From positions 1 to 42,939 of the IMG/VR virus record IMGVR_UViG_3300032050_000260: DNA of 42,939 nt; one strand, written 5' to 3'. Positions 2,991 through 30,585 of the stretch are shown here, one piece after another; the stretch's first letter is position 1, and every line of letters begins with the position of its first letter. A program made the position numbers and the translations under genes. The DNA comes from a virus. The notes below the pieces were generated by a model, which worked only from the letters and a program-made list of their open reading frames with translations, made no database searches and had not been told where the DNA came from.

Positions 2991-4091
2991 ATGGCAATAT
3001 CTTACTTATCGGGCGGTCAACAGACAACGGTCAATTCTACAATTACAGAATTGTTCCCAGCACTCTGTTTTAATAATGGCCTTAAACCAAGAAGTCCTGA
3101 AGCTTTAGAGCAGATGATTCGTTCTATTGACTTAAAGACACCGAAGTCCCGTAAGACATTTGTTACCGAAAGTAATCTAAAAGCAGGTAAAGAATTCATT
3201 AATCTGATTGATAGAATCAGACCCAATATGCGTGAAGAAAAGATTCAAAACGCATATGCTATTTTACAATATCTTTATGATATGCACAAAGAAAGACCTA
3301 TTGATAAGGTCATGTGGGGTTACCGTGAAAAACCACAAGGTATTCCAGGTAACCATGCAGGTGATGTTTTTATTTTTTTCAAAGATAAAACCAAAAAACC
3401 TAAAAGTATTGGTGTATCACTAAAGGCTGGTTCTGAATCATCAGCAGAACCAAAACTAAACAGTTATGTTAAAACTACATTAACAAAACCGATGTGGTTA
3501 AAATCAGCACCAAGAGCCGTATCAGACTTAAAAAAAGAACTTTGGAAAGATGTGTATTCTAAAATACCTGGTTTATCAAAGTCTATCAATGCAGATAATT
3601 ATTTTACAAGTGTTGGTACAAAAGATGCTACTAAAGCAAATCCAATGCTCATTGAAAAGATGATTGACTTCTTTGAAGCCAATCCTAAAAAGTTTGATGA
3701 ACTGTATGGTGTTATGAACAAAATATGCCGTGAAAAATTATGTTCAGTTATTAATAAAGATTTGAAAGCTACTAAAGATTGGATTAATCAAGAGTTTAGA
3801 CTTGAGAAAAAAGATGTTGAAGTTCCTTTGATACTTGTTAAAGCTATTCGTGACAAATACAAAGTTGCTGGTGATCCGTTAGTTGAGATATTACCAAAAG
3901 TTATAAAAGCCAAGGCGTATCTAAATAAACAATCTGTGCAAGAATGGTTTATTGACTTATCAACAAAGACACAAACAGTTACATTATTGATGACTATTCG
4001 TTCCGATTCAGAATTTAGAAGAGCAAAACCAAAAGGTAAATTAGGTTCATTTGTAGGACTTAAATTACTCTATCGTGGAATTAAGAAATGA
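2991..4091 (+). CDS. uncharacterised phage protein, possible PD-(D/E)XK nuclease
   Basis: This 366-residue protein starts with ATG behind AAGGATTTTGA. I do not recognise a named family. Around residues 124-148 the pattern GDVFIFF ... IGVSLKAGSESS has the shape of a restriction-endonuclease fold: an acidic residue on one strand, then a strand ending in S-L-K about 18 residues later. The rest is helical and lysine-rich, with the tail KGKLGSFVGLKLLYRGIKK. It opens a late operon and overlaps the ligase-like gene by four bases. If it is a nuclease, homing or host-DNA degradation are options; neither is shown. Confidence 0.6.
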   Translation: MAISYLSGGQQTTVNSTITELFPALCFNNGLKPRSPEALEQMIRSIDLKTPKSRKTFVTESNLKAGKEFINLIDRIRPNMREEKIQNAYAILQYLYDMHKERPIDKVMWGYREKPQGIPGNHAGDVFIFFKDKTKKPKSIGVSLKAGSESSAEPKLNSYVKTTLTKPMWLKSAPRAVSDLKKELWKDVYSKIPGLSKSINADNYFTSVGTKDATKANPMLIEKMIDFFEANPKKFDELYGVMNKICREKLCSVINKDLKATKDWINQEFRLEKKDVEVPLILVKAIRDKYKVAGDPLVEILPKVIKAKAYLNKQSVQEWFIDLSTKTQTVTLLMTIRSDSEFRRAKPKGKLGSFVGLKLLYRGIKK

Positions 4092-5317
4092 AATTCGCAG
4101 AATACCTAGAAGAATCAAAAGAAAATAAAAATGTTCATCTTGAGCATATTGAAGATGAGGTATTAAATCGTGGTGTAGCTGGCACACGAGATGCTATTAA
4201 TTTTCTCCGAGCATTAAGAGATATGTTAGCAGGCCATGCTGAATCAAAAGTAAATATCACCACAAAATGGGACGGTGCACCTGCCGTATTTGCTGGTATC
4301 AATCCAGAAAATGGTAAATTCTTTGTAGGAACTAAAGGTGTTTTTGCGAAGAACGCTAAGTTAAATTATACTGATAAAGATATTGACAATAATCATCCAG
4401 CTGAAGGTCTTAATAAAAAACTTAAAGTTGCATTAAGATACTTACCAAAGTTAGGTATCAAAGGTGTTTTACAAGGCGACATGATGTTCACTAAAGGTGA
4501 TTTGAAAAATGAAGTCATTGATGGTACCGATTACATTACATTTCAACCAAATACAATTGTGTATGCTGTTCCTGTTGATTCTAAATTAGCACAGATGATG
4601 TTAGCTGCACAAATTGGTGTGGTGTTTCATACTTCATACACAGGTAAAACATTAGAAGATATGAAAGCGTCATTTAATATTGACATCAATAATTTAGCTA
4701 CAACTAAAGATATTTGGTTCCGTGATGCCTCTTTTGTTGATGCTTCAGGCACTGCTACATTTACTGAACAAGAAACAAAACAAATTACATATATTCTATC
4801 TGACATTGGTAATCTATTCAGAGGAATTAATCCTGTGGTGCTAAATAGAATAGCAACAACAGAAATTGTTAGAACACAAATTAAAACATTTAACAATTCT
4901 AAAGTTCGTGCAGGTGAAGTTATCACAGATACAACAAAGCATGTTCGTGATTTGATTCGCACTATTGAAGATAAGTTAAACAAAGAAATACTTGCAGCTA
5001 AATTAGATAAAACTAAACAAAAAAGAATAGCTGAAAAATCAGAATTGATGAGATTCTATCGCAACAATGCAACAGAATTAAAAAAGATATTTGATATTCA
5101 AAATGGTTTAGTAGAAGCTAAATCTATGATTATTAAGAAGTTACAACAGATTCGTCAGGTCACAGGAACATTCCTAAAGACTGACAATGGTTTCAAAATT
5201 ACAAACGCAGAAGGTTTTGTGGCTGTGGACAAATTAAAAGGCAACGCAGTTAAACTGGTTGACCGATTAGAATTTAGTCAAGCAAACTTTAACGCACAAA
5301 AAGCATGGGACAAATAA
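4088..5317 (+). CDS. ligase-like nucleotidyltransferase (DUF6267-like) with head-targeting N-terminus
   Basis: This 409-residue protein has signatures of covalent nucleotidyltransferases (DNA/RNA ligases, capping enzymes): motif I K60-W-D-G63, a motif III-like GVLQGDMMF, motif IV E375-G-F-V and motif V with K389 in NAVKLVDR. A helical insertion of roughly 130 residues separates the middle and last motifs. The family resembles the phage family I know as DUF6267. The N-terminus MKFAEYLEES carries L-E-E at 7-9 and looks like a T4 capsid-targeting tag that a prohead protease would remove. Its start overlaps the upstream stop. Substrate (DNA or RNA) and true ligase activity are unknown; motif III has D where ligases usually have E. 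Confidence 0.7.
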   Translation: MKFAEYLEESKENKNVHLEHIEDEVLNRGVAGTRDAINFLRALRDMLAGHAESKVNITTKWDGAPAVFAGINPENGKFFVGTKGVFAKNAKLNYTDKDIDNNHPAEGLNKKLKVALRYLPKLGIKGVLQGDMMFTKGDLKNEVIDGTDYITFQPNTIVYAVPVDSKLAQMMLAAQIGVVFHTSYTGKTLEDMKASFNIDINNLATTKDIWFRDASFVDASGTATFTEQETKQITYILSDIGNLFRGINPVVLNRIATTEIVRTQIKTFNNSKVRAGEVITDTTKHVRDLIRTIEDKLNKEILAAKLDKTKQKRIAEKSELMRFYRNNATELKKIFDIQNGLVEAKSMIIKKLQQIRQVTGTFLKTDNGFKITNAEGFVAVDKLKGNAVKLVDRLEFSQANFNAQKAWDK

Positions 5318-5318
5318 A

Positions 5319-5591
5319 ATGGCATATGATTTAACCAAAATATTACAAGAGTATGGTGATAACGATTTTGGCTTTACGGCTGTTGATGAAGCAGAATACA
5401 ATGCTGTTATTGCACAGAAAGATGAAACAGTTGAAGAATATAAATCAAGACTTCAACAAGTAGAAAAGATTGTGATGCCTCTTTTAATTAATTTATTAAA
5501 GACAGCAGACCAACCAATCATCAAATGGCCTAACCGTAAACCAATTTTAGAAGCACAGATTCAAAAGATTGTTACTTTAACCAGAGATTAG
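5319..5591 (+). CDS. small conserved phage protein, helical
   Basis: This 90-residue protein begins one base after the ligase-like gene. Residues 25-60 are a predicted helix (EYKSRLQQVEKIVMPLLINLL), followed by IIKWPNRKPILEAQIQKI. Similar small proteins with a WPNRK segment occur in marine T4-like phages, without a known function as far as I recall. It sits between two genes with head-targeting N-termini but lacks that tag itself. Confidence 0.65.
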   Translation: MAYDLTKILQEYGDNDFGFTAVDEAEYNAVIAQKDETVEEYKSRLQQVEKIVMPLLINLLKTADQPIIKWPNRKPILEAQIQKIVTLTRD

Positions 5592-5592
5592 A

Positions 5593-6207
5593 ATGAAATC
5601 ATTCCGCAACTTTCTTACTGAAGAATTCAAAAATGGTGGATTAACCATATTTGATATTGATGATACATTGTTCAAAACAACAGCTCGTGTCAATGTTAAA
5701 AAAGGTAATAAGGTTGTTAAAAGACTTGACCCACATTCATACAATACATATGAATTAAAAGATGGTGAAGAATTTGATTTCAAAGAATTCCGTGATGCTG
5801 AAAAGTTCTACAATGAATCTAAACCTATCAAAGGTATGATGGCAAAAGCCAAAGCGATTCTAAAGAATACACTCAATTCAGAATTAAGTCGTGTTATTAT
5901 TGTAACGGCACGAGATGACTTTGATGACCGTGAAAAGTTTTTAGATACATTCCGTAAATATGGTTTTGATATTGACCGTGTTCGTGTTGAAAGAGCTGGT
6001 AAGATTAAAGATATTCGTAGCACAGCTATTTCAAAAATGGTCATCATCCGTAACTATCTAAATACCAAGCAGTTCTCAAGAGCAAGGTTGTTTGATGATT
6101 CATTAGAGAATCTAAAGATGTTTTTACATCTACAAAAAGAATTTCAAGATATTAAATTTGAAGCATTTTTTGTTAAAGAAGATGGTTCAATAAGGACAGT
6201 TAAGTAA
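5593..6207 (+). CDS. HAD-family phosphatase with head-targeting N-terminus
   Basis: This 204-residue protein carries all four HAD motifs: DIDDT with D21 and D23, IIVTAR (motif II), the lysine in ISKMVIIRNYL (motif III) and LFDDSLENL (motif IV). HAD enzymes dephosphorylate through an aspartyl-phosphate. The length fits 5'(3')-nucleotidase or polynucleotide 3'-phosphatase-like members with a short helical cap. The start MKSFRNFLTEE has L-T-E at 8-10, the same tag as genes at 4088, 10480, 12579 and 15454, suggesting packaging in the head and cleavage there. It overlaps the next gene by one base. Substrate unknown; phosphorylated nucleic-acid ends or nucleotides are plausible. Confidence 0.82.
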   Translation: MKSFRNFLTEEFKNGGLTIFDIDDTLFKTTARVNVKKGNKVVKRLDPHSYNTYELKDGEEFDFKEFRDAEKFYNESKPIKGMMAKAKAILKNTLNSELSRVIIVTARDDFDDREKFLDTFRKYGFDIDRVRVERAGKIKDIRSTAISKMVIIRNYLNTKQFSRARLFDDSLENLKMFLHLQKEFQDIKFEAFFVKEDGSIRTVK

Positions 6208-6497
6208 TGTTAAAACAAGTTAATGGTCGCTGGGCGTTAGTGTCAAAAAAGACACAGAGACCTTTAGCATACTACAAAGGTGAAGGCAAACCATCCGATG
6301 AATGGGTTGCTAAACAAGAAAAACGCATACAATTTTTTAAGCATGGCATGGGTGAAGCTGTAAATATCAAACCTGATATTCTTCCTAAATCTGGTGGTGG
6401 CCAAGATGGCACAGATACATTAAGAAAATCATATCAAAAAGATACACCCGGTCAATCTAAAATTATAGGATTCAAACAATACCGCAAGACTAAATAA
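6207..6497 (+). CDS. small conserved phage protein (WALVSKKT / RIQFFKH type)
   Basis: This 96-residue protein starts at the last base of the HAD stop codon. Its N-terminal half, WALVSKKTQRPLAYYKGEG followed by EWVAKQEKRIQFFKH, is a module I recognise from many T4-like phages, where it appears alone or fused to structural proteins. The C-terminal half is polar, with a KTK end. No enzymatic motif is visible. Its place behind two tagged proteins fits a virion or head-related role, which is inference. Confidence 0.68.
   Translation: MLKQVNGRWALVSKKTQRPLAYYKGEGKPSDEWVAKQEKRIQFFKHGMGEAVNIKPDILPKSGGGQDGTDTLRKSYQKDTPGQSKIIGFKQYRKTK
6489..6496 (+). promoter_or_regulatory. weak late-promoter-like site (ACTAAATA)
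   Basis: The last six bases match the T4 late core TAAATA and the first two do not. It overlaps the preceding stop codon and lies 21 bases upstream of the ATG at 6518, which has a TTGGAG ribosome site. It could start the sugar/methyltransferase cassette, but chance is likely in AT-rich DNA. Confidence 0.28.
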
Positions 6498-6517
6498 AAT
6501 ATATTATTGGAGTTATT

Positions 6518-7375
6518 ATGAAAGATATAGTGGTTGGTTGCATTACTGGTTATGACTTTGACAAAATTAAACCTTGGGTCAATTCATTAGATACATGTGG
6601 TTTTACTGGCACCAAGGCCATGATTTGTTATAATGTTGATTATGAAACAACTGAAGAGCTAGTCAAGCGTGGTTACACCATTTTTGCATTTAAGAAGAAT
6701 GATGAAGCTAAACGATTTGAATACAAAGATAATTTCTCCATCGTTGTTGAACGATTCTACCATCTCTGGTACTTCTTAAAAGGTCTCAAAGGTCAATATC
6801 GCAACATCATTACAACCGATGTTAAAGATGTGGTCTTTCAAACAAACCCATCCTTATTTTTAGAACGAGTTATTAAAGACGGCAAAAAGATTAATGTCGC
6901 CTGTGAATCTATTCGTTATAAAGATGAAGATTGGGGTGATAACAATTTACTTAAATCATTTGGTCCGTTAATTCACGAGCATAATCGTGACAACCTAATC
7001 TATAACGCTGGCACAATCTCTGGTGATTTTGATACCATGATTGATGCCTTTCTAAACATTTATCTATTATGTAATGGTTCAAATCCATTTATTGAAGGTG
7101 GTGGTGGACCAGACCAAGCTGCATTGAATGTTTTATTACAATTAGAACCCTATAAATCAATTACCAATTTTGCTATGAGTGAGGACGGTTATGCCGCTCA
7201 ATTAGGCACCACAGGCCCACAAATACAAGGCAAATATGGTGATAGGGTGGTTGAAAAATGTCCAATTTTAGTAGATAATATGGTTTGCACTAGCAACGGA
7301 CAGGTATTCTCCTTGGTTCACCAATATGATAGAGTGCCTGAATGGAAACAATTGATTGAGAAAAAATATGCGTAA
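6518..7375 (+). CDS. putative GT-A type glycosyltransferase
   Basis: This 285-residue protein looks like a nucleotide-sugar transferase: an N-terminal Rossmann-like start (MKDIVVGCITGYDFDKIKPW), an acidic metal-binding-like segment NIITTDVKDVVFQTNPSLF, and a C-terminal GGGGPDQAALNVLL, a pattern typical of GT-A enzymes where an aspartate contacts the acceptor. It has a TTGGAG ribosome site and heads a five-gene run with a second transferase-like protein, a radical SAM enzyme and two methyltransferases. Donor and acceptor are unknown; the phage particle, phage DNA or a host envelope glycan are possible. Confidence 0.68.
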   Translation: MKDIVVGCITGYDFDKIKPWVNSLDTCGFTGTKAMICYNVDYETTEELVKRGYTIFAFKKNDEAKRFEYKDNFSIVVERFYHLWYFLKGLKGQYRNIITTDVKDVVFQTNPSLFLERVIKDGKKINVACESIRYKDEDWGDNNLLKSFGPLIHEHNRDNLIYNAGTISGDFDTMIDAFLNIYLLCNGSNPFIEGGGGPDQAALNVLLQLEPYKSITNFAMSEDGYAAQLGTTGPQIQGKYGDRVVEKCPILVDNMVCTSNGQVFSLVHQYDRVPEWKQLIEKKYA

Positions 7376-8114
7376 CATTATCTTTGTACCTGTAGGCCAA
7401 GAATTAGCATTCCATGAAGCATATGATAAGAACAATCATTGGCGTTATACCAAATCTAACAGAGATTATGAAATCATCGCTTATCAATATAAAGATTTTG
7501 ATATTGAACCTGACACTTATGATTATTTGATTAAAGATGTTGGTTTCAAATGGGACTTAGCAAAACATTTCCTTGATACTTTTGATTGGCGAGATTATAA
7601 TTATATTGGTTTTTGGGACGATGATTTAGTTACCGATATTCAAAGTGTGAATCGTGGTTTAGAACTAGCAGAAAAACATGATATGAAATTATTTCAACTA
7701 TCAACACTAGCTGGTTCAGCTTCATCACATTTAGTTTTACATCAAAACAAAGAATGGGTTTTTAGTAGAACAAATTTTATTGAAGGCATGGCACCATTCT
7801 TTCACACTTCAATGATACCAATCTTATTAGATTTTTGGGAGTATCATAAAGTTTATAGTGGTTGGGGCTTTGATATGATATTTTCATCTATCTGCCGTGA
7901 AAAAGCTGGAGTAATACATGAAGTATCAATGTATCATCCAGATAGACCAAGTAATTATGATAAACACAAAGCCTTCCTTGAAATGGAAGAAATATTAAAT
8001 AAAGTTTATCCTAAATTTATGCAAGACAAATATGGCACACCAGACCAAACAGATATTGATTGGACTGGTTCTCAACGACACGAAGTAGTATATGAATTCA
8101 CACTAAAGGGATAA
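7368..8114 (+). CDS. putative glycosyltransferase, DUF707-like
   Basis: This 248-residue protein starts at the ATG at 7368, overlapping the upstream gene by eight bases; a TTG at 7356 in the same frame is less likely. The segment DYNYIGFWDDDLVTD has the triple-aspartate motif of DUF707 and related glycosyltransferase-like proteins, which bind a metal and nucleotide sugar. YSGWGFDMIFSSI further on fits the acceptor-side motif of that fold. It is the second sugar-transfer candidate in the cassette. Specificity cannot be read from the sequence. Confidence 0.62.
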   Translation: MRNIIFVPVGQELAFHEAYDKNNHWRYTKSNRDYEIIAYQYKDFDIEPDTYDYLIKDVGFKWDLAKHFLDTFDWRDYNYIGFWDDDLVTDIQSVNRGLELAEKHDMKLFQLSTLAGSASSHLVLHQNKEWVFSRTNFIEGMAPFFHTSMIPILLDFWEYHKVYSGWGFDMIFSSICREKAGVIHEVSMYHPDRPSNYDKHKAFLEMEEILNKVYPKFMQDKYGTPDQTDIDWTGSQRHEVVYEFTLKG

Positions 8115-8116
8115 AA

Positions 8117-9235
8117 ATGGAAGTTATTGATACGAGTAAACTCAAAAAGACAAAAAAAGAATATGTAGTTGACAACCAAATTAAAGGTCGTAGTTACTCA
8201 AGTAACCATGCAAAATTACTCAAGCACATGGATCGCTTGATTGATTTACAGGAAGGTAAAAGACCAAAGCCTGTCATGTTTCATATGTCACCTTGCAACC
8301 CTTGTAACTTAACATGTTCATTTTGTTGTTTTGCTAATCGTGCCATGAAAGAGATGTTGACTGTTGAGCAAATGAAATCAGCTATTGACCAATTCCATGC
8401 TCTAGGTGCAACAGGTATGGAATTTACAGGCGGTGGCGAACCAACATTACACCCACAATTAGATGAAGTGATTGAATATGCTTACAATAAAGGTTTGAAA
8501 ATTGGTATTTGCACCAACGGTTCAAAACTTAAAAAGATTAAAAATTGGCACATGATGTCGTGGGTTCGCCTAGGAATGTATTCATGGGACGAAAAGAAAC
8601 CATATCCATATCACCTTGAAGTGTTTGAAGGATTAGATATTGAAATCTCAGCTGCCTATGTTTGGGATGGTGCAATGGACACATCTACAAATCCTAATAT
8701 TACTGGTGAGTGGAAAGACCCGAAAGCTAAAAAGTTAGCATCAAACGAATATAAAGAAGAAAACTTTATGAAGATGCTAGCGTGGGTTGAAGAAAATAAA
8801 ATCCCATGTCGTATTGCCTTTAATGCAATTAAAGACCCAAAGATTGTAATGCAAGATATTGAATCAATTAAAGTATTGATTGCTAAACATGAAGAAAAAC
8901 ATGGCAAATTGCAATATGCTTTCTTATCAGATTTCAACTTCAAAGGTGAAAGACGAAACAATCATTGTTATATGCACGGCGTAAAACCTTGTGTGTTTAC
9001 CGATGGTTATGTTTATGTTTGTCCATCAGCTGAATTAGCACCAGAAAATAATTATCAAGTAAATGAAGAATTCAAGTTGTGTGATATTGCTGGCATTACA
9101 GACTTTTATAATTCACAAGTTGGTGGTCCTGATAATTTTAGAAGACACCACGATTGTTCATTCTGTAAATACGCATATCAAAATGAATTGATTGATGATG
9201 TATTAATGCCAACAAAACATAACGAATTTGCATAG
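8117..9235 (+). CDS. radical SAM enzyme with SPASM-like C-terminus
   Basis: This 372-residue protein has the radical SAM signature CxxxCxxC at C63, C67 and C70 (CNLTCSFC), which binds a 4Fe-4S cluster and cleaves S-adenosylmethionine. The SAM-binding GGGEP motif follows (MEFTGGGEPTLHP). The C-terminal third has more cysteines (CYMHGVKPC, VCPS, CDIAG, CSFCKY), as in SPASM/twitch domains that hold extra clusters. It starts three bases after the DUF707-like gene. In sugar or peptide clusters such enzymes do dehydration, epimerisation or crosslinking; the substrate is unknown. It would depend on Fe-S supply, notable given IscU and ErpA in the same genome. Confidence 0.88.
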   Translation: MEVIDTSKLKKTKKEYVVDNQIKGRSYSSNHAKLLKHMDRLIDLQEGKRPKPVMFHMSPCNPCNLTCSFCCFANRAMKEMLTVEQMKSAIDQFHALGATGMEFTGGGEPTLHPQLDEVIEYAYNKGLKIGICTNGSKLKKIKNWHMMSWVRLGMYSWDEKKPYPYHLEVFEGLDIEISAAYVWDGAMDTSTNPNITGEWKDPKAKKLASNEYKEENFMKMLAWVEENKIPCRIAFNAIKDPKIVMQDIESIKVLIAKHEEKHGKLQYAFLSDFNFKGERRNNHCYMHGVKPCVFTDGYVYVCPSAELAPENNYQVNEEFKLCDIAGITDFYNSQVGGPDNFRRHHDCSFCKYAYQNELIDDVLMPTKHNEFA

Positions 9236-9243
9236 GACATATT

Positions 9244-9864
9244 ATGAGCTTAAAAAAAGTGTTTGACGAAAAGTATTTTGAAGATGGTGTTCGTAGTCGT
9301 GTAAGTGCCTATGAGAATTACCGTTGGATGCCAGAGAGAACCATTCGTGAGGCCTCTTCAATCATTAACAATATACAATTTGATAATGTATTAGATTATG
9401 GTTGTGCTAAAGGTTTCATGGTATATGCTATGAGGTTGCTTGGTAAAGAAGCTTATGGTGTTGATGTGTCAGAGTATGCTGTTACCCATGGTCATCCAAA
9501 AGTTAAAGAATTCTTGTCGGTGATTGAAACGACTGAAGACATCAAAGGCGGCTGGGATTTAATTATTGCTAAAGATGTTCTTGAGCATATTCCTAAAGAA
9601 GAATTACCAGCTGTATTATCTGCTTTCCGTAGAAGATGTAAATACTTATTTGTTGGTGTTCCACTTGGTGATGGCAAACGATATAGAATCCGTGAATATG
9701 AAATGGATGTAACACATGTTGTCCGTGAACCTGAAGAATGGTGGTTGACCACTCTAGTAGAAGCTGGTTTCAAAATCAAGTATTTTGATTATCAATTCGG
9801 CCATCTCAAAGAAAACTGGACAACATCTCATCCGCACGGCAACGCATTTATAGTTGCCGAATAA
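9244..9864 (+). CDS. class I SAM-dependent methyltransferase
   Basis: This 206-residue protein has a class I methyltransferase core: motif I VLDYGCAKGFMVYAM, the acidic end of strand 2 in YGVDVSEYAV, and WDLIIAKDVLEHIPKEEL, the motif of the Methyltransf_11/23-type group that methylates small molecules or sugars. There is no DNA-methyltransferase DPPY motif. It follows the radical SAM gene and overlaps the next methyltransferase by one base. Likely acceptors are a sugar, lipid or peptide made by the same cassette. Confidence 0.85.
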   Translation: MSLKKVFDEKYFEDGVRSRVSAYENYRWMPERTIREASSIINNIQFDNVLDYGCAKGFMVYAMRLLGKEAYGVDVSEYAVTHGHPKVKEFLSVIETTEDIKGGWDLIIAKDVLEHIPKEELPAVLSAFRRRCKYLFVGVPLGDGKRYRIREYEMDVTHVVREPEEWWLTTLVEAGFKIKYFDYQFGHLKENWTTSHPHGNAFIVAE

Positions 9865-10442
9865 TGGATCATTTCTATAAAAAACTACAAGAACGAACAT
9901 TTTTCAATTATGACAATGTTTATGATTATATTATTGAAAAATATGATACAGCTAAGTTTGTAGAGATTGGTGTTTGGCGTGGCCAATCAGTTTGTTATGC
10001 GGCTGTAGAGATAATCAATAAAGGCAAGAATATAACAATTGATGCCATTGATACTTGGGAAGGTTCACCTCAAGAAAATTTACACATCAAAGATCCACAC
10101 CAAGATGGAACTCTCTATGACATCTTCCTTAACAACATTGAACCGGTCAAACATATTATCACTCCCGTAAGAATGGATAGTATCCAAGCGTCTTCCAGAT
10201 ACGAGGACAGGTCATTAGATTTTGTTTTCATAGATGGTTCTCACCTATATGAAGCAGTCAAGGCAGACATCCAAGTATGGTTGCCCAAAGTTAAATTTGG
10301 TGGGTTTATTGGTGGCCATGATTACGGCAATAGTAATGAACCATTGAATGGTGTGCAACGGGCTGTGGATGAAGTCTTTGGAGAAGATAAAAGAATCTAT
10401 AATCCAGGCTGGGGTAGTTGGTTGCATCATCTAAAAGCATAA
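9864..10442 (+). CDS. class I SAM-dependent methyltransferase (Methyltransf_24-like)
   Basis: This 192-residue protein shows motif I FVEIGVWRGQSVCYAA, IDAIDTWEGSPQE (acidic end of strand 2), and LDFVFIDGSHLYEAVKADI, a combination typical of the Methyltransf_24 family found in sugar and polysaccharide clusters. FGGFIGGHDYG fits the metal-dependent branch of that family. It ends the sugar cassette; its stop codon lies inside a late-promoter-like CATAAATA. Substrate unknown. Confidence 0.85.
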   Translation: MDHFYKKLQERTFFNYDNVYDYIIEKYDTAKFVEIGVWRGQSVCYAAVEIINKGKNITIDAIDTWEGSPQENLHIKDPHQDGTLYDIFLNNIEPVKHIITPVRMDSIQASSRYEDRSLDFVFIDGSHLYEAVKADIQVWLPKVKFGGFIGGHDYGNSNEPLNGVQRAVDEVFGEDKRIYNPGWGSWLHHLKA

Positions 10443-10445
10443 ATA
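10438..10445 (+). promoter_or_regulatory. T4-type late promoter, CATAAATA
   Basis: CATAAATA matches the T4 late consensus at seven of eight positions and lies 34 bases ahead of the ATG at 10480. It overlaps the stop codon of the preceding gene, and the short gap to the next gene holds GAGGCGG close to the start. It would drive the operon of large head-tagged proteins. Confidence 0.55.
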
Positions 10446-10479
10446 AAGAGTATAATTAACCTGCTGTAGAGGCGGAAAA

Positions 10480-12582
10480 ATGAAATTCAAAGACTTTTTA
10501 ATTAAAGAATCAAAAGATAGACATGCCGTTTTGGCCTTTGGAAGGCTTCAACCACCCACAACTGGCCATGAAGTTTTAGTCAATAAAGTTAAAGAGTTAT
10601 CTAAGCAACATAACGCTCAGCATCATATCGTTTTATCCCATTCAAACGACCCTAAATCTAATCCTCTCACAGCAAAACAAAAAGTTAAACACGCAAAACG
10701 ATTCTTTCCAGGTACGAATATTACGACCTCTGATAAAGAACATCCTAACTTTTTAACACAAGCATCTAAATTACACAAGTCTGGTGTAACACACTTGCAC
10801 ATGGTTGCTGGTTCAGACCGTATACCAGAATATAAAAGAATATTGAAAAAATATAATGGCACACATGAAGGAGCTTTATTTAATTTCAAAAAGATTGATG
10901 TTCATTCTGCTGGTGAAAGGGATCCAGACGCAGAAGGTACCACAGGTATGTCAGGCTCTAAAATGAGAGCTCATGCAGCTTCTGGTAAATACAGAGAATT
11001 CAAAAAAGGTGTACCTAAGCATATATCAGATGAACACGCAAAAGAATTATACCATGATTTGCGTAAAGGTATGAATATGAAAGAAGACATTAACGAAACA
11101 TTTACAGAAGTTTTAAGCGAAGGTGTTCACGACCAAGGCATATTCAAAGCAGTATTTCTTGCTGGCGGTCCAGGTTCTGGTAAAGACTATGTGTTAAGTA
11201 ACACACTTGAAGGCCAAGGTCTAGTAGAAATTAATTCAGATAAAGCACTTGAGTTCTTAATGGACAAAAAAGGCCTTGATAAAACAATGCCCGCTACTGA
11301 AAAAGATAAAAGAGATATTGTTCGCACACGAGCAAAAACAATTACAGAATTAAAACAAAGATTAGCATTACTTGGTCGCAATGGTTTAATTATCAATGGC
11401 ACAGGCGATGACTATGAAAAGATTTCTCGTATCAAAGAGAAACTAGAAGAATTAGGTTATGAATCAGCCATGATACTTGTCAACACAGATGATGAAGTAT
11501 CTAAAGAAAGAAATATTGAAAGAGGTCAACGAGGCGGTCGTACCGTTCCTGAAGATGTTCGTAAAGAGAAATGGGAAAATGTTCAACGCTCAAGACCTGA
11601 ATTTGCAAAACTATTTGGCCAAAATTATATGGAGTTTGATAACTCACAAGATTTACGCCAAGCACCACCAGAAGTAGTTAAAAATAAAAAAGAAGAATTA
11701 CTACAACTTTATACAAACATACAACAATTTGTAAGTAGACCGCCAGCTTCAGAAACATCACAAGAATGGGTAGCTACACAGATGCACGCTGTTGATTCTT
11801 TACCAATTTCAAAAGATGGTGCTGAAAAAACACCACATGCTAATTCAAAAGCTGCACAAGAAGCACAAAGACTTGGTCTACAATATTATGGTTTTGGTCG
11901 CTACGGACAAAATGGCGAAGTTACATACCGCTCAGTCCATGATACATTAGTGAAAGTTGTAAAACAACCAACAGAGAAACCTATGAATAAAAATGTCAAT
12001 GAAGAATTTGAAGACTTCTTAAATGAAGCTGTTACTGTAACAATTTCTGGTGACACCGCTGAAGAAGTTAATAAAGTAATTAAGAATATGAAAGGCGAAG
12101 AAGAGGTTGAAGAAGAAGTTGAAGAAGAAACAAAACCACAATATTCTTTATCAGATACCTTTGCATTAAATAGTTTAACTTTAGGCAGAAACCTTGTTAA
12201 AGAAGAAATACTTAATGAAGCAAAATATATCACAGACAAATCAGGTAAGAAAAAAGTGTATATGCTTCGTTCACAAGCCGCTTCAGAAGCCCATAAAAAA
12301 CAAGGTGTGGTTTATAAAGAAAAACATGGATATGTGATTAAACTAAAAGAATCAATTGATAAAGGTATTGAACCTGGTCTTTCTATGGCAGCTTCAGGTG
12401 AAAGTCCTGATAGAGATATGGGTGAAAAGATTAAAAAGAAAACAGGTAAGGCCTCGCAAGTAGCAGAAACAATTGGTGCTGGCGGTGAAATGGCAACATC
12501 AATGTCAGACCAAAAAGAAGATGAATTAAAAAGAAAAGGCATTTCACTATCATCATTCAAAGCTAAAAGGGTTATAGGATGA
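10480..12582 (+). CDS. nucleotidyltransferase-kinase fusion with internal cleavage-like junctions
   Basis: This 700-residue protein joins several units. Residues 1-10 (MKFKDFLIKE) are a head-targeting-like tag. Residues ~14-200 form a cytidylyltransferase-like nucleotidyltransferase (FGRLQPPTTGH at 20-30; GMSGSKMR near 156-163). Residues ~220-430 form a P-loop kinase or zeta-toxin-like domain (GGPGSGKD at 229-236; RGGRTVPEDVR). The rest is acidic linker and a small Lys-rich C-terminal module. LSE|G (212-215), LNE|A (514-517) and LNE|A (578-581) fall between units and match the T4 prohead-protease rule (L/I)-x-E|. NadR has the same two-domain order, but this kinase looks more zeta-like. It is probably packaged in the head and may be cut into separate enzymes. 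Confidence 0.78.
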   Translation: MKFKDFLIKESKDRHAVLAFGRLQPPTTGHEVLVNKVKELSKQHNAQHHIVLSHSNDPKSNPLTAKQKVKHAKRFFPGTNITTSDKEHPNFLTQASKLHKSGVTHLHMVAGSDRIPEYKRILKKYNGTHEGALFNFKKIDVHSAGERDPDAEGTTGMSGSKMRAHAASGKYREFKKGVPKHISDEHAKELYHDLRKGMNMKEDINETFTEVLSEGVHDQGIFKAVFLAGGPGSGKDYVLSNTLEGQGLVEINSDKALEFLMDKKGLDKTMPATEKDKRDIVRTRAKTITELKQRLALLGRNGLIINGTGDDYEKISRIKEKLEELGYESAMILVNTDDEVSKERNIERGQRGGRTVPEDVRKEKWENVQRSRPEFAKLFGQNYMEFDNSQDLRQAPPEVVKNKKEELLQLYTNIQQFVSRPPASETSQEWVATQMHAVDSLPISKDGAEKTPHANSKAAQEAQRLGLQYYGFGRYGQNGEVTYRSVHDTLVKVVKQPTEKPMNKNVNEEFEDFLNEAVTVTISGDTAEEVNKVIKNMKGEEEVEEEVEEETKPQYSLSDTFALNSLTLGRNLVKEEILNEAKYITDKSGKKKVYMLRSQAASEAHKKQGVVYKEKHGYVIKLKESIDKGIEPGLSMAASGESPDRDMGEKIKKKTGKASQVAETIGAGGEMATSMSDQKEDELKRKGISLSSFKAKRVIG

Positions 12583-12968
12583 AATCGTTCAAAACTTACA
12601 TTACAGAAAGATGTTGGCCTGGATATAAAGAAACTCCAGGTAAAAAAGCCTATGAAAAAGGTTCATGTGTAAAAGAAGAAGAACAGATTGATGAAGTGGC
12701 TGCATGGCAACGCAAAGAAGGTAAATCTGAATCTGGTGGTTTGAATCGCAAAGGTATTGCATCATATCGCCGTGAAAATCCAGGTTCAAAACTTTCAATG
12801 GCTGTTACTACAAAGCCAAGTAAATTAAAACCTGGTTCAAAAGCAGCGAATCGCCGTAAATCATTCTGTGCAAGAATGGGCGGTATGAAAAAAAGATTAA
12901 CATCATCAGAAACCGCTCGTGATCCAGATAGCCGTATTAACAAAGCATTAAGAAAATGGAATTGCTAA
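12579..12968 (+). CDS. small basic head-tagged protein (DUF6321-like)
   Basis: This 129-residue protein starts MKSFKTYITER, with I-T-E at 8-10, the same tag as its neighbours. Residues ~40-129 (SGGLNRKGIASYRRENPGS, then AANRRKSFCARMGGMKKRL) are a Lys/Arg-rich module I recognise as DUF6321-like from many phages. A cysteine pair-like element CWPGY...GSC lies after the tag. The strong positive charge would suit binding packaged DNA. It overlaps the preceding stop by four bases. Confidence 0.75.
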   Translation: MKSFKTYITERCWPGYKETPGKKAYEKGSCVKEEEQIDEVAAWQRKEGKSESGGLNRKGIASYRRENPGSKLSMAVTTKPSKLKPGSKAANRRKSFCARMGGMKKRLTSSETARDPDSRINKALRKWNC

Positions 12969-14384
12969 TTGACGCAATATACAACACAAACTAACCAGTT
13001 TCTAAACACCAATAGGCATATCTATGAGGTCATGTATTTGGCCAATGGTGCCAATGGTGATATTGTATCTACTGAAAATAGATTACCGGTAGATACGGTA
13101 TATTCTGGTTCTCAAGGTGATGCCTTTGGTCGCTTGCGTGTTGCAGAACCATTTACACTTGGTGACTATAAACATTTATTTGCAATTGACCCAAACTTTA
13201 TAGATTTTACTGCAAACGGCGGTACAGTTACATTTACTGGTAATACAGCATCGGCTACATTATCAACAAACAATAGCACATCATCAGTATCGGTTCATCA
13301 AACTAAATTTTACCATAGCTATCAACCAGGTAAATCACAAGTGATTCTTTCATCTGTTGTGTTTGGTTATGCTCAACAAAATGTAACAAAGAGAACTGGT
13401 TATTTTGATGACCGTGATGGAATTTATTTTGAGCAAGTTGGTTCAAATACATCAAACGGTACAAATAACGGAACATTAAACTTTGTAATCCGTTCTTTTA
13501 CAACTGGCACCGCATTAGAATCGGATGTTGGTTCTTATAAGCGTAGAGTGCCACAATCACAATGGAGTGTTGACCCGTGTGATGGTACAGGACCATCAGG
13601 TTTCAATATTGATACTTCAAAAACACAATTGGTTTACATTGACTTTCAATGGTTAGGTGTTGGTCGTGTTCGTGTTGGTTTTGTTCACGATGGTGCGTTT
13701 ATCATAGCACACGAATACTATCACTCAAATATATTAAATGAGGTTTATCTGTCAAGTCCAAACTTGCCAGTTCGTTGTGAAATAAGAAATACAGGAACAA
13801 CCTCTGGCGGTTCAATGGGCCAAATTTGTGCAAGTGTTATTTCTGAAGGAGGTTACAATGAATCTGGAATTGATTGGTCTACCTTTGGTTATGCAAGAAC
13901 AACAGCAACACCATCAGCTACACCTTTACCATTAATTGCATTACGATTAAAAACCACTTTCAAAGGATACCCAAATCGTTTAAGTGTAAGGTTAAATACC
14001 CTATCATTATATGCAGAAACAAATAGTATTATCTTTGAAATCATCAAACTTCCAAATGCAAGCAGTTTGGCTAATGGAACTGGTGCTTTGGTTTGGACTT
14101 CAGCTGATGATGATAGTGGTTGTGAATATTGTGTTAATGCCGACTCCTACACATCAGCAAATGCGGATAGATTGGCATCAGGATTTGTTCCGTCAGGTTC
14201 ATCACAAAACTCATTATCACCAGTCAGCACTGGTTCAATCACGGCAGCTAAAAAGAATATTATCGTTCAAAATTACGATTCAAGTGAATCAGAAGTATAT
14301 GCAGTAATAGTAAGAACAATTATAACAGCCGGTAATCAGTCCGCTAGCGTAGCAGCTGCATTACAATGGCGAGAAATTTATTAA
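12969..14384 (+). CDS. virion structural protein (SGSQGDAFGRLRV type)
   Basis: This 471-residue protein starts with TTG directly after the preceding stop. It is rich in S, T, G and N with alternating strands, as in phage surface beta proteins. GDAFGRLRVAEPFTL, YQPGKSQVILSSVVFG, QSQWSVDPCDGTGPSG and GQICASVISEGGY are familiar from a large-phage structural family of unconfirmed location (head fibre or tail). It has no cleavage tag. The flanking genes are head-tagged proteins, so a capsid-associated place is slightly favoured. Confidence 0.75.
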   Translation: MTQYTTQTNQFLNTNRHIYEVMYLANGANGDIVSTENRLPVDTVYSGSQGDAFGRLRVAEPFTLGDYKHLFAIDPNFIDFTANGGTVTFTGNTASATLSTNNSTSSVSVHQTKFYHSYQPGKSQVILSSVVFGYAQQNVTKRTGYFDDRDGIYFEQVGSNTSNGTNNGTLNFVIRSFTTGTALESDVGSYKRRVPQSQWSVDPCDGTGPSGFNIDTSKTQLVYIDFQWLGVGRVRVGFVHDGAFIIAHEYYHSNILNEVYLSSPNLPVRCEIRNTGTTSGGSMGQICASVISEGGYNESGIDWSTFGYARTTATPSATPLPLIALRLKTTFKGYPNRLSVRLNTLSLYAETNSIIFEIIKLPNASSLANGTGALVWTSADDDSGCEYCVNADSYTSANADRLASGFVPSGSSQNSLSPVSTGSITAAKKNIIVQNYDSSESEVYAVIVRTIITAGNQSASVAAALQWREIY

Positions 14385-14404
14385 AAAAAACTAGGAGAAC
14401 TACA

Positions 14405-15454
14405 ATGAACCTCAAAAAAGAACTAAGCGGAGTTGCTGAGGCAGTTGCCAAAGTAATGGAAGCTGAATTGTCACCAAAACAAAAAGCAATCGCTAAACTT
14501 GCTGGACCAAAACACAAAATTGATTCTGGTGATTTAGCAAAACTTCGTGCAGGCCATAAACCTGTTGAAGAAGGTTACTATAAAGATATTGATACTAATC
14601 GCAAAGAAGATGAGCGTTTAGCTGCACAAAAGAAAAAACAATTACCATTTACTCCAGATAAACCAAAAGCAAAAGTTGCTACTGCTGGTAAATTTGGATA
14701 TGGTTATTCAGCTGCTCGTCATTTAGCACGCCAAGGTATGGCATCTTTAACTAAAGAAGAACAAGAGTTTATTGATGAATTAAATAAATCTACACTAGGT
14801 TCTTATATTAATAAATCTGCAAAAGATGCTGTTGATAGAACGGCTAAAGAAGTTGAAACTGGTGAGATTGACAAATTAGCGGATAAAAGAATGAAAGGTA
14901 TCAAATTAGCTACTAAAAAATTAGCTAAAGAAGAAACTGAACAAGTTGAAGAAGCAATTACAAAAACATCAACAGGTTATATTCACCATGCAAGACCGGG
15001 TGTTTATGGTGGTTCAGAAAAAGAAAAACATGTTGTTGACACATTAAGAGGTCCAAAGAAATCAGAAATAGAAGCTATTGAAAAGGAAAAGAAAATGAAA
15101 AAATTTAGCGAAATGTTAGATTTAATCAATTCACAAGGTCTTAAAGCATTGTCAGAAATGATTAAAGAAGAACCTGATAATGAAACTTTCACAAAAGAAT
15201 TAAAAGACCAAGAAGCTAAAGCTGCAGGTAAGAAAAAACAACCTGATTTAGCAAAAGGTGCAATTCAATCAGTTAAAGTTGAAGAAGATGTTGAACAGGT
15301 TGAAGAGCGTTCACTCACAGAACCAGAAATGAAAAAGAAAGAAGAAATTGTTAAATCAATGAAAAAAGGTTTAGCAGGTTTCAAAGCTCGTTACGGTGAC
15401 CGTGCAAAAGAAGTAATGTATGCCACAGCTACCAAGCAAGCAAAAGGTGAATAG
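14405..15454 (+). CDS. modular Lys/Glu-rich phage protein with LSKGTL-type module
   Basis: This 349-residue protein starts at the ATG at 14405, ten bases after AGGAG; an upstream in-frame ATG at 14366 lies inside the previous gene and is unlikely. Units in order: an N-terminal helix and ELSPKQKAIAKLAGPKHKID; a module at 123-184 (IDELNKSTLGSYINKSAKDA ... KLAKEETEQVEE) also found in the next protein; a segment from M231 (MKKFSEMLDLIN) with its own GGAAAAG-type ribosome site at 15095; and a C-terminal unit ending KARYGDRAKEVMYATATKQ, familiar from marine phages. It is highly charged and likely internal or DNA-associated. No catalytic motif is seen. Confidence 0.72.
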   Translation: MNLKKELSGVAEAVAKVMEAELSPKQKAIAKLAGPKHKIDSGDLAKLRAGHKPVEEGYYKDIDTNRKEDERLAAQKKKQLPFTPDKPKAKVATAGKFGYGYSAARHLARQGMASLTKEEQEFIDELNKSTLGSYINKSAKDAVDRTAKEVETGEIDKLADKRMKGIKLATKKLAKEETEQVEEAITKTSTGYIHHARPGVYGGSEKEKHVVDTLRGPKKSEIEAIEKEKKMKKFSEMLDLINSQGLKALSEMIKEEPDNETFTKELKDQEAKAAGKKKQPDLAKGAIQSVKVEEDVEQVEERSLTEPEMKKKEEIVKSMKKGLAGFKARYGDRAKEVMYATATKQAKGE

Positions 15455-17247
15455 TGAAAACTTTTTTTGACCTACACGAAGATTTAAGACAATGGTTTGA
15501 CCCCAAGCACCCTAAAGGTGGTTGGAAAAGAATCAACAGTAAAGGCGAGGCCATTGGTCCTTGCGCTCGTGAACCTGGTGAGGCCAAACCAAAGTGTATG
15601 TCAAACGAAAAGAGAGCTAAACTATCTAAAAAAGAAAGAGCCTCAGCTGTAGCAACAAAAAGAAAGCATGACCCAAATCCAGAAAGAAAGGGTTCACCAA
15701 TCAATGTATCTAATTTTGGTAAAGGAAAGATAAGCGAAGATATGGAAAACTTAAACGAAAAGAATGTACCAACAAGTCCAGAAAAATGGGCTCAAGCAAA
15801 AGCGCAAGCCAAAGCTAAGTTTGATGTTTATCCATCCGCTTATGCCAATGGTTGGGCTGCAAAAAAATATAAAGAAATGGGTGGCGGTTGGAAATCTATT
15901 TCAGAAGTCAAAGAACTTGGTGACGATCCAATAAATGATGGCACTCCACCCGAAATAAGAAAAAGAGGAAGTAAAACTGTGATTACATCTAACGAAATCA
16001 AAGAAGCAATCAAAGATAAATTTGACATTGGTGAATATGACCAAGAAGGTGATATGGCCAAATCAGATTTGCGTTCTATCATGGCTAATGCAAAACGATT
16101 ACATGATATGATTGAAGATGCTGATAACCTACCTGAATGGTGCCAAAACAAAATTACTCTAGCTGAAGATTATATCTCAACAGTTGCTAATTATTTAACG
16201 GCTGAAATGAATGAAGAATTCGTAAAAACTGGTAAAGAAGCAACACACAATAAAACTGGTGAAAAGACCTATGAATATGCAAAAGTAGATAAAGAAGGTC
16301 GTAAAACTGGTGAAAGAGAATATCGTAACGCACAAGGCAAACCTATGGGTGAAGAATCAAAATTACAAGAATCTGGTGGACCCGTTGTGTATAAAAAAGG
16401 CGATAATCACATTGAGAAATATGGTAAAGATTCTTTTGCACTCTACAAAGATGGTAAGAAAGCAAAATACTATACATCAATAGAGGCAGCAAAACAAGCC
16501 ATGGATGAAGAATTTGCTGGTTGGGTTGCACACTATAATGGCCAAAAACACGAAATCAAAAGCCATCAAGCTAAAGATTTGTATGGTGCAAAACAAAAAG
16601 CAATCGCTCACTTCAAAATACCTAAATCTAAACACGGTTTACTTTCAGTAAAACCTGGTGTGAATGAAGAAATAGAACAGATTGATGAGTTATCAAAAGG
16701 TACTTTAGCTTCATATGCTAAAAAAGCTACACATGATGCTCGTATCAAACAAGTAGTTGCTCGTGATTTCAAAGCTAAATCTGACCAAGCAAGAATGCCA
16801 AGAAAGAAAGAAACATGGAAAAGTCTTGCTGATAAGTATCAATCACAAGCATGGAAGCGTGAAAAGGGCCATAACAAAGCTGTTGATAAATTAGCAAAAG
16901 AAGAAACAGTAGAAGAATCTCGTGGTCACAAAGTGTTAGCAACATTCTTTAAGAATCGTGAAGTAGCACAAAGAGCATTTAACAAACCACAAGAAAAGAA
17001 ACCAGAAACAAAAGAAACGAATGGTCATAACAAACAACCAGTTCATGAGCAACTTTATAAACAAGGTCGTTTTGTGTCTGGTGCAGGTAAAAAGCCATTC
17101 AAAGCTCCAGCGATTGTTAAAGCTGCAGTAAACGAATCTCGTAAGGCAGAGATTGTAAAGAACATTATGAAGAAGAAAAAGTCTGATAAGTTTGAACCGG
17201 AACCAGAGTTAAGTAATACTCAATCCAAATCAGACCAGACTGTATAA
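15454..17247 (+). CDS. mosaic head-tagged protein of five or more small phage modules
   Basis: This 597-residue protein starts with GTG overlapping the previous stop. It begins MKTFFDLHED (L-H-E at 7-9, tag-like). Next come a DUF5872-like unit (WFDPKHPKGGWKRI; KCMSNEKRAKLSKKERASA), a unit KWAQAKAQAKAKFDVYPSAY, a helical unit MAKSDLRSIMANAKRLHDMI with CQNKITLAEDYISTVANYL, a unit VAHYNGQKHEIKSHQAKDLY, and at 410-489 the LSKGTL module shared with the preceding protein. Glu-rich linkers with L-N-E, L-Q-E and I-D-E separate them and could be protease sites. Each unit recurs alone or in other orders in T4-like phages. I infer a packaged polyprotein; no enzyme is seen. Confidence 0.75.
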   Translation: MKTFFDLHEDLRQWFDPKHPKGGWKRINSKGEAIGPCAREPGEAKPKCMSNEKRAKLSKKERASAVATKRKHDPNPERKGSPINVSNFGKGKISEDMENLNEKNVPTSPEKWAQAKAQAKAKFDVYPSAYANGWAAKKYKEMGGGWKSISEVKELGDDPINDGTPPEIRKRGSKTVITSNEIKEAIKDKFDIGEYDQEGDMAKSDLRSIMANAKRLHDMIEDADNLPEWCQNKITLAEDYISTVANYLTAEMNEEFVKTGKEATHNKTGEKTYEYAKVDKEGRKTGEREYRNAQGKPMGEESKLQESGGPVVYKKGDNHIEKYGKDSFALYKDGKKAKYYTSIEAAKQAMDEEFAGWVAHYNGQKHEIKSHQAKDLYGAKQKAIAHFKIPKSKHGLLSVKPGVNEEIEQIDELSKGTLASYAKKATHDARIKQVVARDFKAKSDQARMPRKKETWKSLADKYQSQAWKREKGHNKAVDKLAKEETVEESRGHKVLATFFKNREVAQRAFNKPQEKKPETKETNGHNKQPVHEQLYKQGRFVSGAGKKPFKAPAIVKAAVNESRKAEIVKNIMKKKKSDKFEPEPELSNTQSKSDQTV

Positions 17248-25390: not shown

Positions 25391-26119
25391 ATGAAGAAAC
25401 TATTACTATTATTACTATTACCATTAACATCTCTGGCGAATCCCATAGATGATAAATGTCCACAATTTACACCTTATGGTGCGCCAGTATCAAAGGCCAC
25501 CAATGTCCAATATATGTGTAAAAAGAATTACGCTCTACAATACAATTACAACACAAAAACAGCTGTATATGTATTAGAACATCTTACTAAAGAATCAATT
25601 ACAGGCCCAGCAAAACGCAAAGACGATTTTCGTCCTGATCCTGAAGTTCCTGTTCAACATCAAAGTCAATTAGCTGATTATGCTGGTAAACCATATGACC
25701 GTGGTCATTTAAGTCCTGGTGCTGACAATACACAAAATGATGAGATTATGTCTGAATCATTCTTCTTGTCTAACATGATTCCACAGGTACCAAACAACAA
25801 TCGTGGTATCTGGAAACAATTAGAAGCCAAGGTGCGTGATTATGTATTGAAAAACAATGATGTTTATGTAGTATCTGGACCAATCTATGAGAGAGGTTAT
25901 GCGGTCATTGGTAACAATGTTGGTATTCCTACGAAAGTGTATAAAGTGATTGTTGATGTAAAGAATCAAAAATCAGCAGCCTACATATTTCCAAATACAG
26001 CCTTACCTGTTGCAGATTTAGAAAAATATAAATTATCCATAACAGAGGCTGAAAAGGTTATTAATATCAATTTCAACCCAAAACTTAACAATTCATTAGA
26101 GAGTAAAAACAATTGGTAA
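25391..26119 (+). CDS. secreted DNA/RNA non-specific endonuclease (NUC1/EndA type)
   Basis: This 242-residue protein begins with a signal peptide ([18 protein letters not shown], cleavage likely near residue 17). The catalytic motif DRGH (103-106, H106 general base) in [13 protein letters not shown] is that of the beta-beta-alpha-metal nucleases such as Serratia nuclease and mitochondrial EndoG; the metal-binding Asn is likely in [13 protein letters not shown]. It has an AAGGA site and starts 11 bases after nrdB. The signal peptide predicts a periplasmic or released enzyme. It could destroy extracellular or competing DNA or feed nucleotides to RNR; this is inference. Confidence 0.87.
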
Positions 26120-26436
26120 CAATAGAACAAGGCGCCGTTGATAAAATTAAAAGTTTATTAGCTGAAGAAGACAATCAAGACCTTAAATTAAGGTTATTTG
26201 TTTCTGGTGGCGGTTGCTCTGGTTTTCAATACGGTTTTACTTTTGATGAATCTCAAAATGAAGATGATTTTGTAGTAGAAAAAGATGGTGTCACTTTACT
26301 TGTAGATGCTATGAGTATGCAATACCTCAATGGTGCTACAATAGATTATAGTAAAACATTAATGGCTGAACAATTTGAAATTAAGAACCCAAATGCTACA
26401 AGTAAATGTGGTTGTGGTTCATCATTTTCAGCATAG
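26113..26436 (+). CDS. erpA: A-type iron-sulfur carrier protein, ErpA/IscA-like
   Basis: This 107-residue protein starts with TTG overlapping the nuclease stop. It has the three conserved cysteines of A-type carriers: C35 in [12 protein letters not shown] and C99, C101 in SKCGCGSSF. These proteins receive Fe-S clusters from a scaffold and pass them to target enzymes. Length and the CGCGSSF end favour ErpA/HesB type. The next gene encodes the scaffold IscU, so the phage carries both a builder and a carrier. Confidence 0.92.
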
Positions 26437-26445
26437 GAGAACTTT

Positions 26446-26829
26446 ATGGCATACTCTGATAAAGTATTAGACCATTATGAAAACCCAAGAAATGTTGGGT
26501 CTTTTCCTAAAGACGAACCAGATGTTGGCACAGGAATGGTTGGTGCGCCGGCCTGTGGTGATGTAATGAAATTACAAATCAAAGTAGAAGATGGTATCAT
26601 TACGGACGCTAAATTTAAGACCTATGGTTGTGGTTCAGCCATAGCTTCATCAAGTTTAGTGACAGAGATACTCAAAGGTAAAACACTACAAGAAGCTTCT
26701 ACTATCAAAAATTCAGCCATCGCTGAAGAACTCGCACTACCACCAGTGAAGATACATTGTTCAGTCCTTGCTGAAGATGCTATCAAAGCTGCAATCAAAG
26801 ATTACGAACTTAAATGTTCGTGTAAATAA
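26446..26829 (+). CDS. iscU: iron-sulfur cluster scaffold protein IscU
   Basis: This 127-residue protein is a complete IscU: C37 and D39 in GAPACGDVMKLQI, C62 in YGCGSAIASSS, H104-C105 in KIHCSVLAEDA, and the LPPVK motif (98-102) recognised by the HscA chaperone. It has a GGAGA site and follows erpA by nine bases. No phage cysteine desulfurase is seen, so sulfur and chaperones would come from the host Isc system. It ends in CSCK, an extra cysteine pair not typical of E. coli IscU. Confidence 0.94.
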   Translation: MAYSDKVLDHYENPRNVGSFPKDEPDVGTGMVGAPACGDVMKLQIKVEDGIITDAKFKTYGCGSAIASSSLVTEILKGKTLQEASTIKNSAIAEELALPPVKIHCSVLAEDAIKAAIKDYELKCSCK

Positions 26830-28339: not shown

Positions 28340-28677
28340 TGGCTAACGCACTTAAAATTTTAGGACAATTAAATCCTACTGCAAATACTCAAGGTAATGT
28401 GTATGTGGTTCCAGCTTCAACAGCAGCAATTATTAATAACATTACTGTAGCAAATCAAACAGCAGCTAATGTATCCTATTCAATCATTGTGATGCCTTCT
28501 GGTGGTTTTTCAGCAACGGCAGCTAACACATACTTTGTGGTTCGTGGCGGTGTCGTACCTGCCTCTGATACTGCATTGTTAAGTTTAGGTCTCACATTAC
28601 CATCTGGTGCAATCTTAGCTGCCAATTCAAATTCAGGTTCAGTTTCAATATCAGCATTTGGTGTAGAGATTAGCTAA
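28339..28677 (+). CDS. fibre-like structural protein, paralogue of the preceding domain
   Basis: This 112-residue protein matches the C-terminal domain of its neighbour: LKILGQLNPTANTQGNVYVV, VPASDTALLSLGLTLPSGAI and SAFGVEIS align with KILGQIVGVANTDSNVYVV, IPAADTLVLDTGVTLPTSAI and HAYGVEIK. It lacks the repetitive N-terminal shaft. The pair looks like a duplication with loss or gain of the shaft. Confidence 0.68.
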   Translation: MANALKILGQLNPTANTQGNVYVVPASTAAIINNITVANQTAANVSYSIIVMPSGGFSATAANTYFVVRGGVVPASDTALLSLGLTLPSGAILAANSNSGSVSISAFGVEIS

Positions 28678-29618: not shown

Positions 29619-29647
29619 AAAGAAAAAATTCATTGAGATATTCTTAA

Positions 29648-30583: not shown

Positions 30584-30585
30584 AA

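Follow-up and report, generated by a model that had tools for sequence, protein, structure and literature searches.

Five proteins with unrelated bodies, encoded by the 42,939-base virus record IMGVR_UViG_3300032050_000260 (the whole stretch analyzed, called the window below), begin with the same short N terminus, and this shared N terminus is very probably a capsid targeting sequence (CTS) of the T4 type. By analogy with T4, the aromatic residues at positions 3/4 and 6/7 would bind the protein into the prohead core, a protease of the gp21 family would then cut after (L/I)xE, and the freed enzyme would remain in the head and enter the cell along with the DNA. By sequence, the tag is found on several unrelated bodies, is optional, keeps the four residues that matter in T4, and occurs in genomes that bear gp21. 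One of the five proteins, encoded at 10480, carries two further tags at its domain junctions and is probably a packaged polyprotein.

The shared N terminus

The five open reading frames, which start at positions 4088, 5593, 10480, 12579, and 15454 (the last with GTG), exist with their N termini exactly as an earlier preliminary description of the window gave them (Table 1). What do these starts have in common? The exact slot motif, M.{1,3}[FY]..[FYLIM][LIV].E, expresses the T4-type pattern (F/Y)xx(F/Y)(L/I)xE, and three of the five, those at 4088, 5593, and 12579, match it. Relatives of the other two proteins carry the exact form: MKFRDYIQE in the case of 10480 and MKSFKQFVNE, followed by DLRKWF, in the case of 15454. 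Among the 68 gene starts of the window, 3 fit the exact motif, versus 0.17 expected from column-shuffled N termini (p = 0.0006); a relaxed motif, whose form was fitted to all five after inspection of the data, gives 5 starts versus 0.44 expected. The bodies had been described as unrelated, and blastp indeed finds no similarity among them (best E about 0.8). The tags themselves are not recent DNA copies, because most pairs are identical at just 7 to 15 of 24 to 27 bases. A requirement for E[AGS] at the cut site was tried and dropped, since the residue after the cut varies (Q, E, A, S, or G).

Tags and proteases in related phages

The window comes from a marine T4-like myophage; family searches match its proteins to a DnaB-like replicative helicase, primase, NrdA/NrdB, and T4-like phage families. 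Judged by the DUF6267 protein encoded at 4088, the nearest isolates are the Methylophilales Melnitz phages EXVC039M, 040M, 043M, and 044M (50% identity across its entire length); next come C48C1, Stenotrophomonas phage DLP_6, and many cyanophages. Seven larger relatives (G001 to G005, Melnitz, and S-SM1) together contribute 1154 gene starts. All seven encode a gp21-family protease (Peptidase_S77), among them G004, whose DUF6267 protein is 92% identical to that of the window. In each, the major capsid protein gp23 shows an [LI]xE site around residues 49 to 53, with A next in six of the seven, and this site near residue 50 is read as the probable gp23 maturation site.

The preliminary description had proposed that gene starts in relatives be searched for the motif against controls, and the outcome bears it out: 22 of the 1154 starts match, whereas the 840 permutations of the slots average 1.5, and the true order ranks first among them. 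The runner-up, with 21 matches, is a near-identical swap of two aromatic slots. Most of the 22 are homologues of window genes in the same cluster, and one, in G002, stands in the prohead core operon. Tagged genes with non-ATG or problem starts (S-CREM2 gp14 and S-SZBM1_192) escaped the simple gene caller, whose counts are therefore lower bounds. In 186 distinct tagged N termini, entropy is 0.32 bits at F1, 1.25 at F2, and 1.24 at L, with 2.5 to 2.7 bits at the x positions, in a comparison where the motif definition partly sets the slots and the pattern itself fixes E. Amber-suppressor mutagenesis of T4 IPIII assigns residues 4 and 7 to targeting and residues 8 and 10 to processing, and an Asp at position 10 prevents processing in T4 (PMC9026906). 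The least variable tag positions are these same four residues.

How tightly is the tag bound to its protein? DUF6267 is tagged in 79 of 79 window-like loci, 66 of 79 C48C1-like loci, and 0 of 79 S-PRM1-like loci. Most untagged C48C1-like starts are one-residue near misses (e.g., MENFKQHITE), while the S-PRM1-like protein starts MAKNTHLEH, residues that align with those directly following the tag in the tagged forms. The S-PRM1-like protein thus begins at the tag boundary, and the tag is therefore a detachable, optional extension. Control genes in the related loci carry no tag (gp41 helicase, 0 of 69; glycosyltransferase, 0 of 85).

A protein punctuated by tags

The product of the gene at 10480 has 700 residues and consists of an NMNAT/NadD-like domain, a P-loop kinase domain, and a C-terminal part. 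The preliminary description, right about the tag at its start, missed two internal tags in this protein, as well as the optional nature of the tag in general. The first internal tag lies between the NMNAT-like and kinase domains, and the window sequence there, FTEVLSE-GVHDQG, aligns with the starts of stand-alone kinase genes in Melnitz (MKTFAELQE, then GVYDPN) and in C48C1-like phages (MKSFKTFLDE, then GVNDPA). The position of the second precedes a DLRKWF domain in three relatives (L144, L147, and L148). That domain type, DLRxWF, is found both as a separate protein, which starts MKSFKQFVNE or MKTFNTFVVE, and in fusions, where FENFISE or FESFISE precedes it; the scan for it demanded a preceding E, so that an E before DLR is no evidence in itself. 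Likewise, the CWxGY segment occurs in a protein of its own after MKSFKTYITE and, in one relative (L118), in fused form after an internal tag (SFKSFINE, then RCWPGY).

Across diverse homologues of the 10480 protein (13,799 residues; 18 include the kinase), 13 slot motifs are N-terminal, 14 fall between the NMNAT-like and kinase domains, 10 mark the junction after that, and a single one lies elsewhere. Thus, 37 of 38 tags sit at one of these three places, where shuffling predicts about 9 anywhere. A bare count of internal motifs was set aside as unconvincing on its own (9 in the window proteome versus 3.4 shuffled, with a maximum of 9; 14 versus 9.5 in Melnitz); what carries the tag signal is its placement at gene starts and domain junctions, not the whole-proteome internal counts. 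In an AlphaFold model of the 10480 protein (overall predicted template-modeling score, 0.34), the tags fall within the low-confidence segments 1 to 10, 202 to 271, and 497 to 524, which is weakly consistent with accessible linkers. The simplest reading of these sequences is that every domain keeps its own address-and-cut tag upon gene fusion. Within the head, the same protease would then separate the NMNAT-like enzyme, the P-loop kinase, and the C-terminal part from one another.

Tagged proteins in virions

Are tagged proteins found in phage particles? For four cyanophages, the accessible parts of the published reports, to which all statements on these virions refer, can be compared with the gene starts. 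Virions of S-SM1 contain the cytidylyltransferase T4-GC190 (PMC3037559), those of S-CREM2 contain ORF154 (PMC10665884), those of S-SZBM1 contain protein 140 but not the adjacent DUF6267 protein, 141, in a list of 30 (PMC9146016), and ORF91 of S-SCSM1 is marked as a virion protein in its record (PMC9602691). All four, detected by mass spectrometry, are NMNAT/cytidylyltransferase orthologues of the 10480 protein, and all four carry a perfect tag ending E|A: MKKFSAFLNEA, MKNFSSFLTEA, MRFRQFIIEA, and MKSFLQFLKEA, respectively. Protein 141 of S-SZBM1 is untagged. In S-CREM2, every tagged start identified belongs to a protein on the virion list (four of four): the SAM hydrolase gp6 (MKDFDSFLEE), gp13 (MKDLHSFLTE), the APH-like kinase gp14 (a GTG start, then KRFDAFLTE), and gp154. 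Across the four phages, 7 of 11 tagged starts belong to virion-detected proteins (p about 0.001 from base rates), of which four are orthologues and so not independent. As a separate observation, the virion-detected Cas9-like endonuclease gp12 of S-CREM2 (L369, 7704-10313) has a tag-like LRFASFMAE, then A, about 17 residues from its start.

Weighing the explanations

Several points weigh against a CTS. No gp21-family protease was found within the 43-kb window, which is a genome fragment. Two of the five starts are one-residue variants, with one residue extra at 10480 and one too few at 15454, and the DUF6267 protein of one large cyanophage clade does without the tag. The published virion proteomes report no cleaved N termini; the plausible tagged small proteins S-SZBM1_191, S-SZBM1_192, and S-SCSM1_30 went undetected in them, as did the chance-like tagged S-SCSM1_77, and the authors of the S-CREM2 and S-SCSM1 studies cannot exclude carry-over (PMC10665884, PMC9602691). 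Moreover, the virion evidence comes from orthologues in other phages. The packaging proposed in the preliminary description thus has tagged orthologues in four cyanophage virions on its side, while for the phage of the window it is predicted from the sequence. The undetected small tagged proteins (S-SZBM1 122311-123125, in L368, and S-SCSM1 44215-44535) show the starts MKSFKSFLSES, MKTFKQYITEA, and MKTFKQFMSES.

Could the tags instead be assembly signals of the prohead core, on proteins that are cut and mostly expelled at maturation, like T4 gp67 and gp68, and that do nothing further once injection has taken place? In T4 core proteins the cut follows the same motif, and the tagged small gene beside gp21 in G002 (MKFVELIAE, 48503-48937) would fit such a role. 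The bodies, however, are enzymes (NMNAT-like, kinase, HAD), and orthologues have been detected in finished virions, which makes this explanation improbable. It is very unlikely that the N terminus is an ordinary amphipathic helix, or a signal for interaction or stability, with no connection to the head protease: although the motif is short and the model of the DUF6267 protein has a short helix at residues 3 to 6, the spacing is fixed and ends in E, the slot order ranks first among its permutations, tags lie at domain junctions with few inside domains, and both the T4-mapped residues and virion detection agree with a CTS. Least probable of all is that chance or shared ancestry gave these families similar starts. 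The conservation figures do count orthologues many times, but the bodies are unrelated, the tag has been gained and lost within one family, and the same domain is tagged both when fused and when standing alone.

Relation to known systems

The closest parallel to the proposed CTS is the set of T4 internal proteins IPI, IPII, IPIII, and Alt, which share an N-terminal signal of 9 to 10 residues, cut by gp21, in front of unrelated bodies (PMC9026906). In both cases aromatics occupy the two targeting positions and (L/I)xE the processing positions, and the window's relatives have a gp21-family protease. Unlike in T4, the bodies here are metabolic and nucleic-acid enzymes, and tags also occur at polyprotein junctions. 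The virion NMNAT proteins of S-SM1, S-CREM2, S-SZBM1, and S-SCSM1 share with the window the orthologous domain, the tag, and mostly the same gp41-gp61 neighborhood (PMC3037559, PMC10665884, PMC9146016, PMC9602691). In contrast, the accessible text of these papers reports no targeting signal, two leave contamination open, and in the window the domain is joined to a kinase and a C-terminal part. The head ejection proteins of phiKZ and SPN3US, whose propeptides are cut by gp175 and gp245, are similar in that a prohead protease cuts many packaged proteins behind a glutamate of a short motif (PMC9026906, PMC10052503). Their protease is distant and their motif different. We know of no separate enzyme domains joined by repeated tags in phiKZ or SPN3US.

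The mechanism itself is therefore already known from the T4 CTS; its extension to Kyanoviridae enzymes and the tag-punctuated polyprotein appear to be new in the open-access literature. Among the open-access full texts searched, the only paper with both "capsid targeting" and "cyanophage" names cyanophages merely in the title of a reference.

The proposed cargo and its neighborhood

Table 1. Tags, tagged proteins, and domains of the window (all on the + strand)
Feature	Position	Strand	Basis
N-terminal tag MKFAEYLEE (exact) of DUF6267 protein	4088..4114	+	79/79 window-like relatives tagged
DUF6267 protein, probably ATP-dependent ligase/nucleotidyltransferase-like	4088..5317	+	Pfam PF19782 E=3.7e-112
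N-terminal tag MKSFRNFLTE (exact) of HAD protein	5593..5622	+	45/45 homologous loci tagged
HAD-family phosphatase-like protein (FDIDDTLF)	5593..6207	+	phrog_415 polynucleotide kinase E=5.7e-9
N-terminal tag MKFKDFLIKE (one extra residue)	10480..10509	+	relatives MKFRDYIQE, MKFRDFIREE
NMNAT/NadD-like (cytidylyltransferase-family) domain, residues ~11-205	10510..11094	+	phrog_3041 E=8.5e-64
Internal tag 1 FTEVLSE then G, residues 208-214, NMNAT/kinase junction	11101..11121	+	tag in 25/29 distinct fused contexts
P-loop kinase domain (Zeta_toxin/AAA_33), residues 215-408	11122..11703	+	PF06414 E=4.3e-14, PF13671 E=2.5e-9
Internal tag 2 FEDFLNE then A, residues 510-516, kinase/C-terminal junction	12007..12027	+	motif match
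N-terminal tag MKSFKTYITE (exact) of DUF6321 protein	12579..12608	+	ORF (open reading frame) translation
DUF6321 protein, CWxGY segment after tag	12579..12968	+	PF19846 E=1.8e-17
N-terminal tag MKTFFDLHE (GTG start, one short)	15454..15480	+	relatives MKSFKQFVNE, MKTFNTFVVE before DLRKWF
DLRxWF-domain protein	15454..17247	+	phrog_12753 E=6e-8

What might the tagged proteins do? The alignment of DUF6267 has the invariant columns K60-W-D62, E375-G376, V378-A379, and K389, with G63 in at least 90%, and contains a KxDG ligase motif I, a motif-IV-like EGFVA, and a motif-V-like VKL. Its best Foldseek matches are DNA and RNA ligases, though weak (E about 0.2 to 1) and obtained with a model whose C-terminal 50 residues are unreliable; no sequence match was found in the PDB. 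These motifs suggest that DUF6267 is probably ATP-dependent ligase- or nucleotidyltransferase-like. The HAD protein matches the HAD model TIGR01509 only below that model's cut-off. For residues 11 to 205 of the 10480 protein, there is good support for an NMNAT-like fold (Foldseek finds NadD/FAD synthetase with E 4e-5 and probability 1.0; phrog_395 is also matched), and synthesis of NAD+ or nicotinic acid adenine dinucleotide (NaAD) is predicted. The HAD protein and the P-loop kinase complete a set that resembles end-healing and end-sealing enzymes plus NAD+ synthesis. Known phage activities include the restoration of NAD+ against NAD-depleting defenses and the mending of tRNAs. The likeliest job of the cargo, proposed on weaker grounds and at less than even odds, would be in the metabolism of NAD+ and of nucleic-acid ends during the opening minutes of infection, when enzymes delivered together with the DNA would be useful to the phage.

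The tagged genes lie between a gp41-type helicase gene and a primase gene, and several relatives have the same neighborhood of tagged genes. Amid them, at 6518-10442, genes judged by eye to encode glycosyltransferase-like proteins, a radical-SAM protein (CxxxCxxC), and two methyltransferase-like proteins are found; the first of this block has homologues in most related loci and a tag in none. The gene at 2991-4091, PD-(D/E)xK-nuclease-like by eye, is untagged in the window and in relatives, and the Melnitz gene at the corresponding position starts MQGFKTFLSEA. Elsewhere, the window encodes a homologue of the Druantia defense protein DruA (1838-2953; PF14236, E=6e-12; phrog_19197), two proteins that by eye resemble iron-sulfur assembly factors (IscA/HesB-like and IscU/NifU-like; 26113-26829) shortly after the ribonucleotide reductase genes, and three glycine-rich proteins in tandem (28677-31569), the first two matching phrog_2295 and the third paralogous-looking by eye.

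Implications

A tag of this kind offers a possible mechanism for the repeated finds of cytidylyltransferase/NMNAT, SAM hydrolase, and kinases in virions where contamination stayed open, and it makes a pattern of 10 residues usable as a testable predictor of what a large family of ocean phages packages. For biotechnology, the tags are a supply of numerous natural versions of the signal on which T4-based protein delivery relies. The internal tags suggest that a viral head can act as a processing chamber for enzyme polyproteins. We tentatively propose, as a picture nearly as likely to hold as to fail, that marine T4-like phages (Kyanoviridae and their kin) use a swappable tag to load an exchangeable enzyme kit, that some kits are polyproteins cut in the capsid, and that the kit (NMNAT-like, ligase-like, kinase, and phosphatase) targets NAD+ and broken nucleic acids ahead of any phage gene expression. 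Such phages probably inject a ready-made enzyme kit with their DNA.

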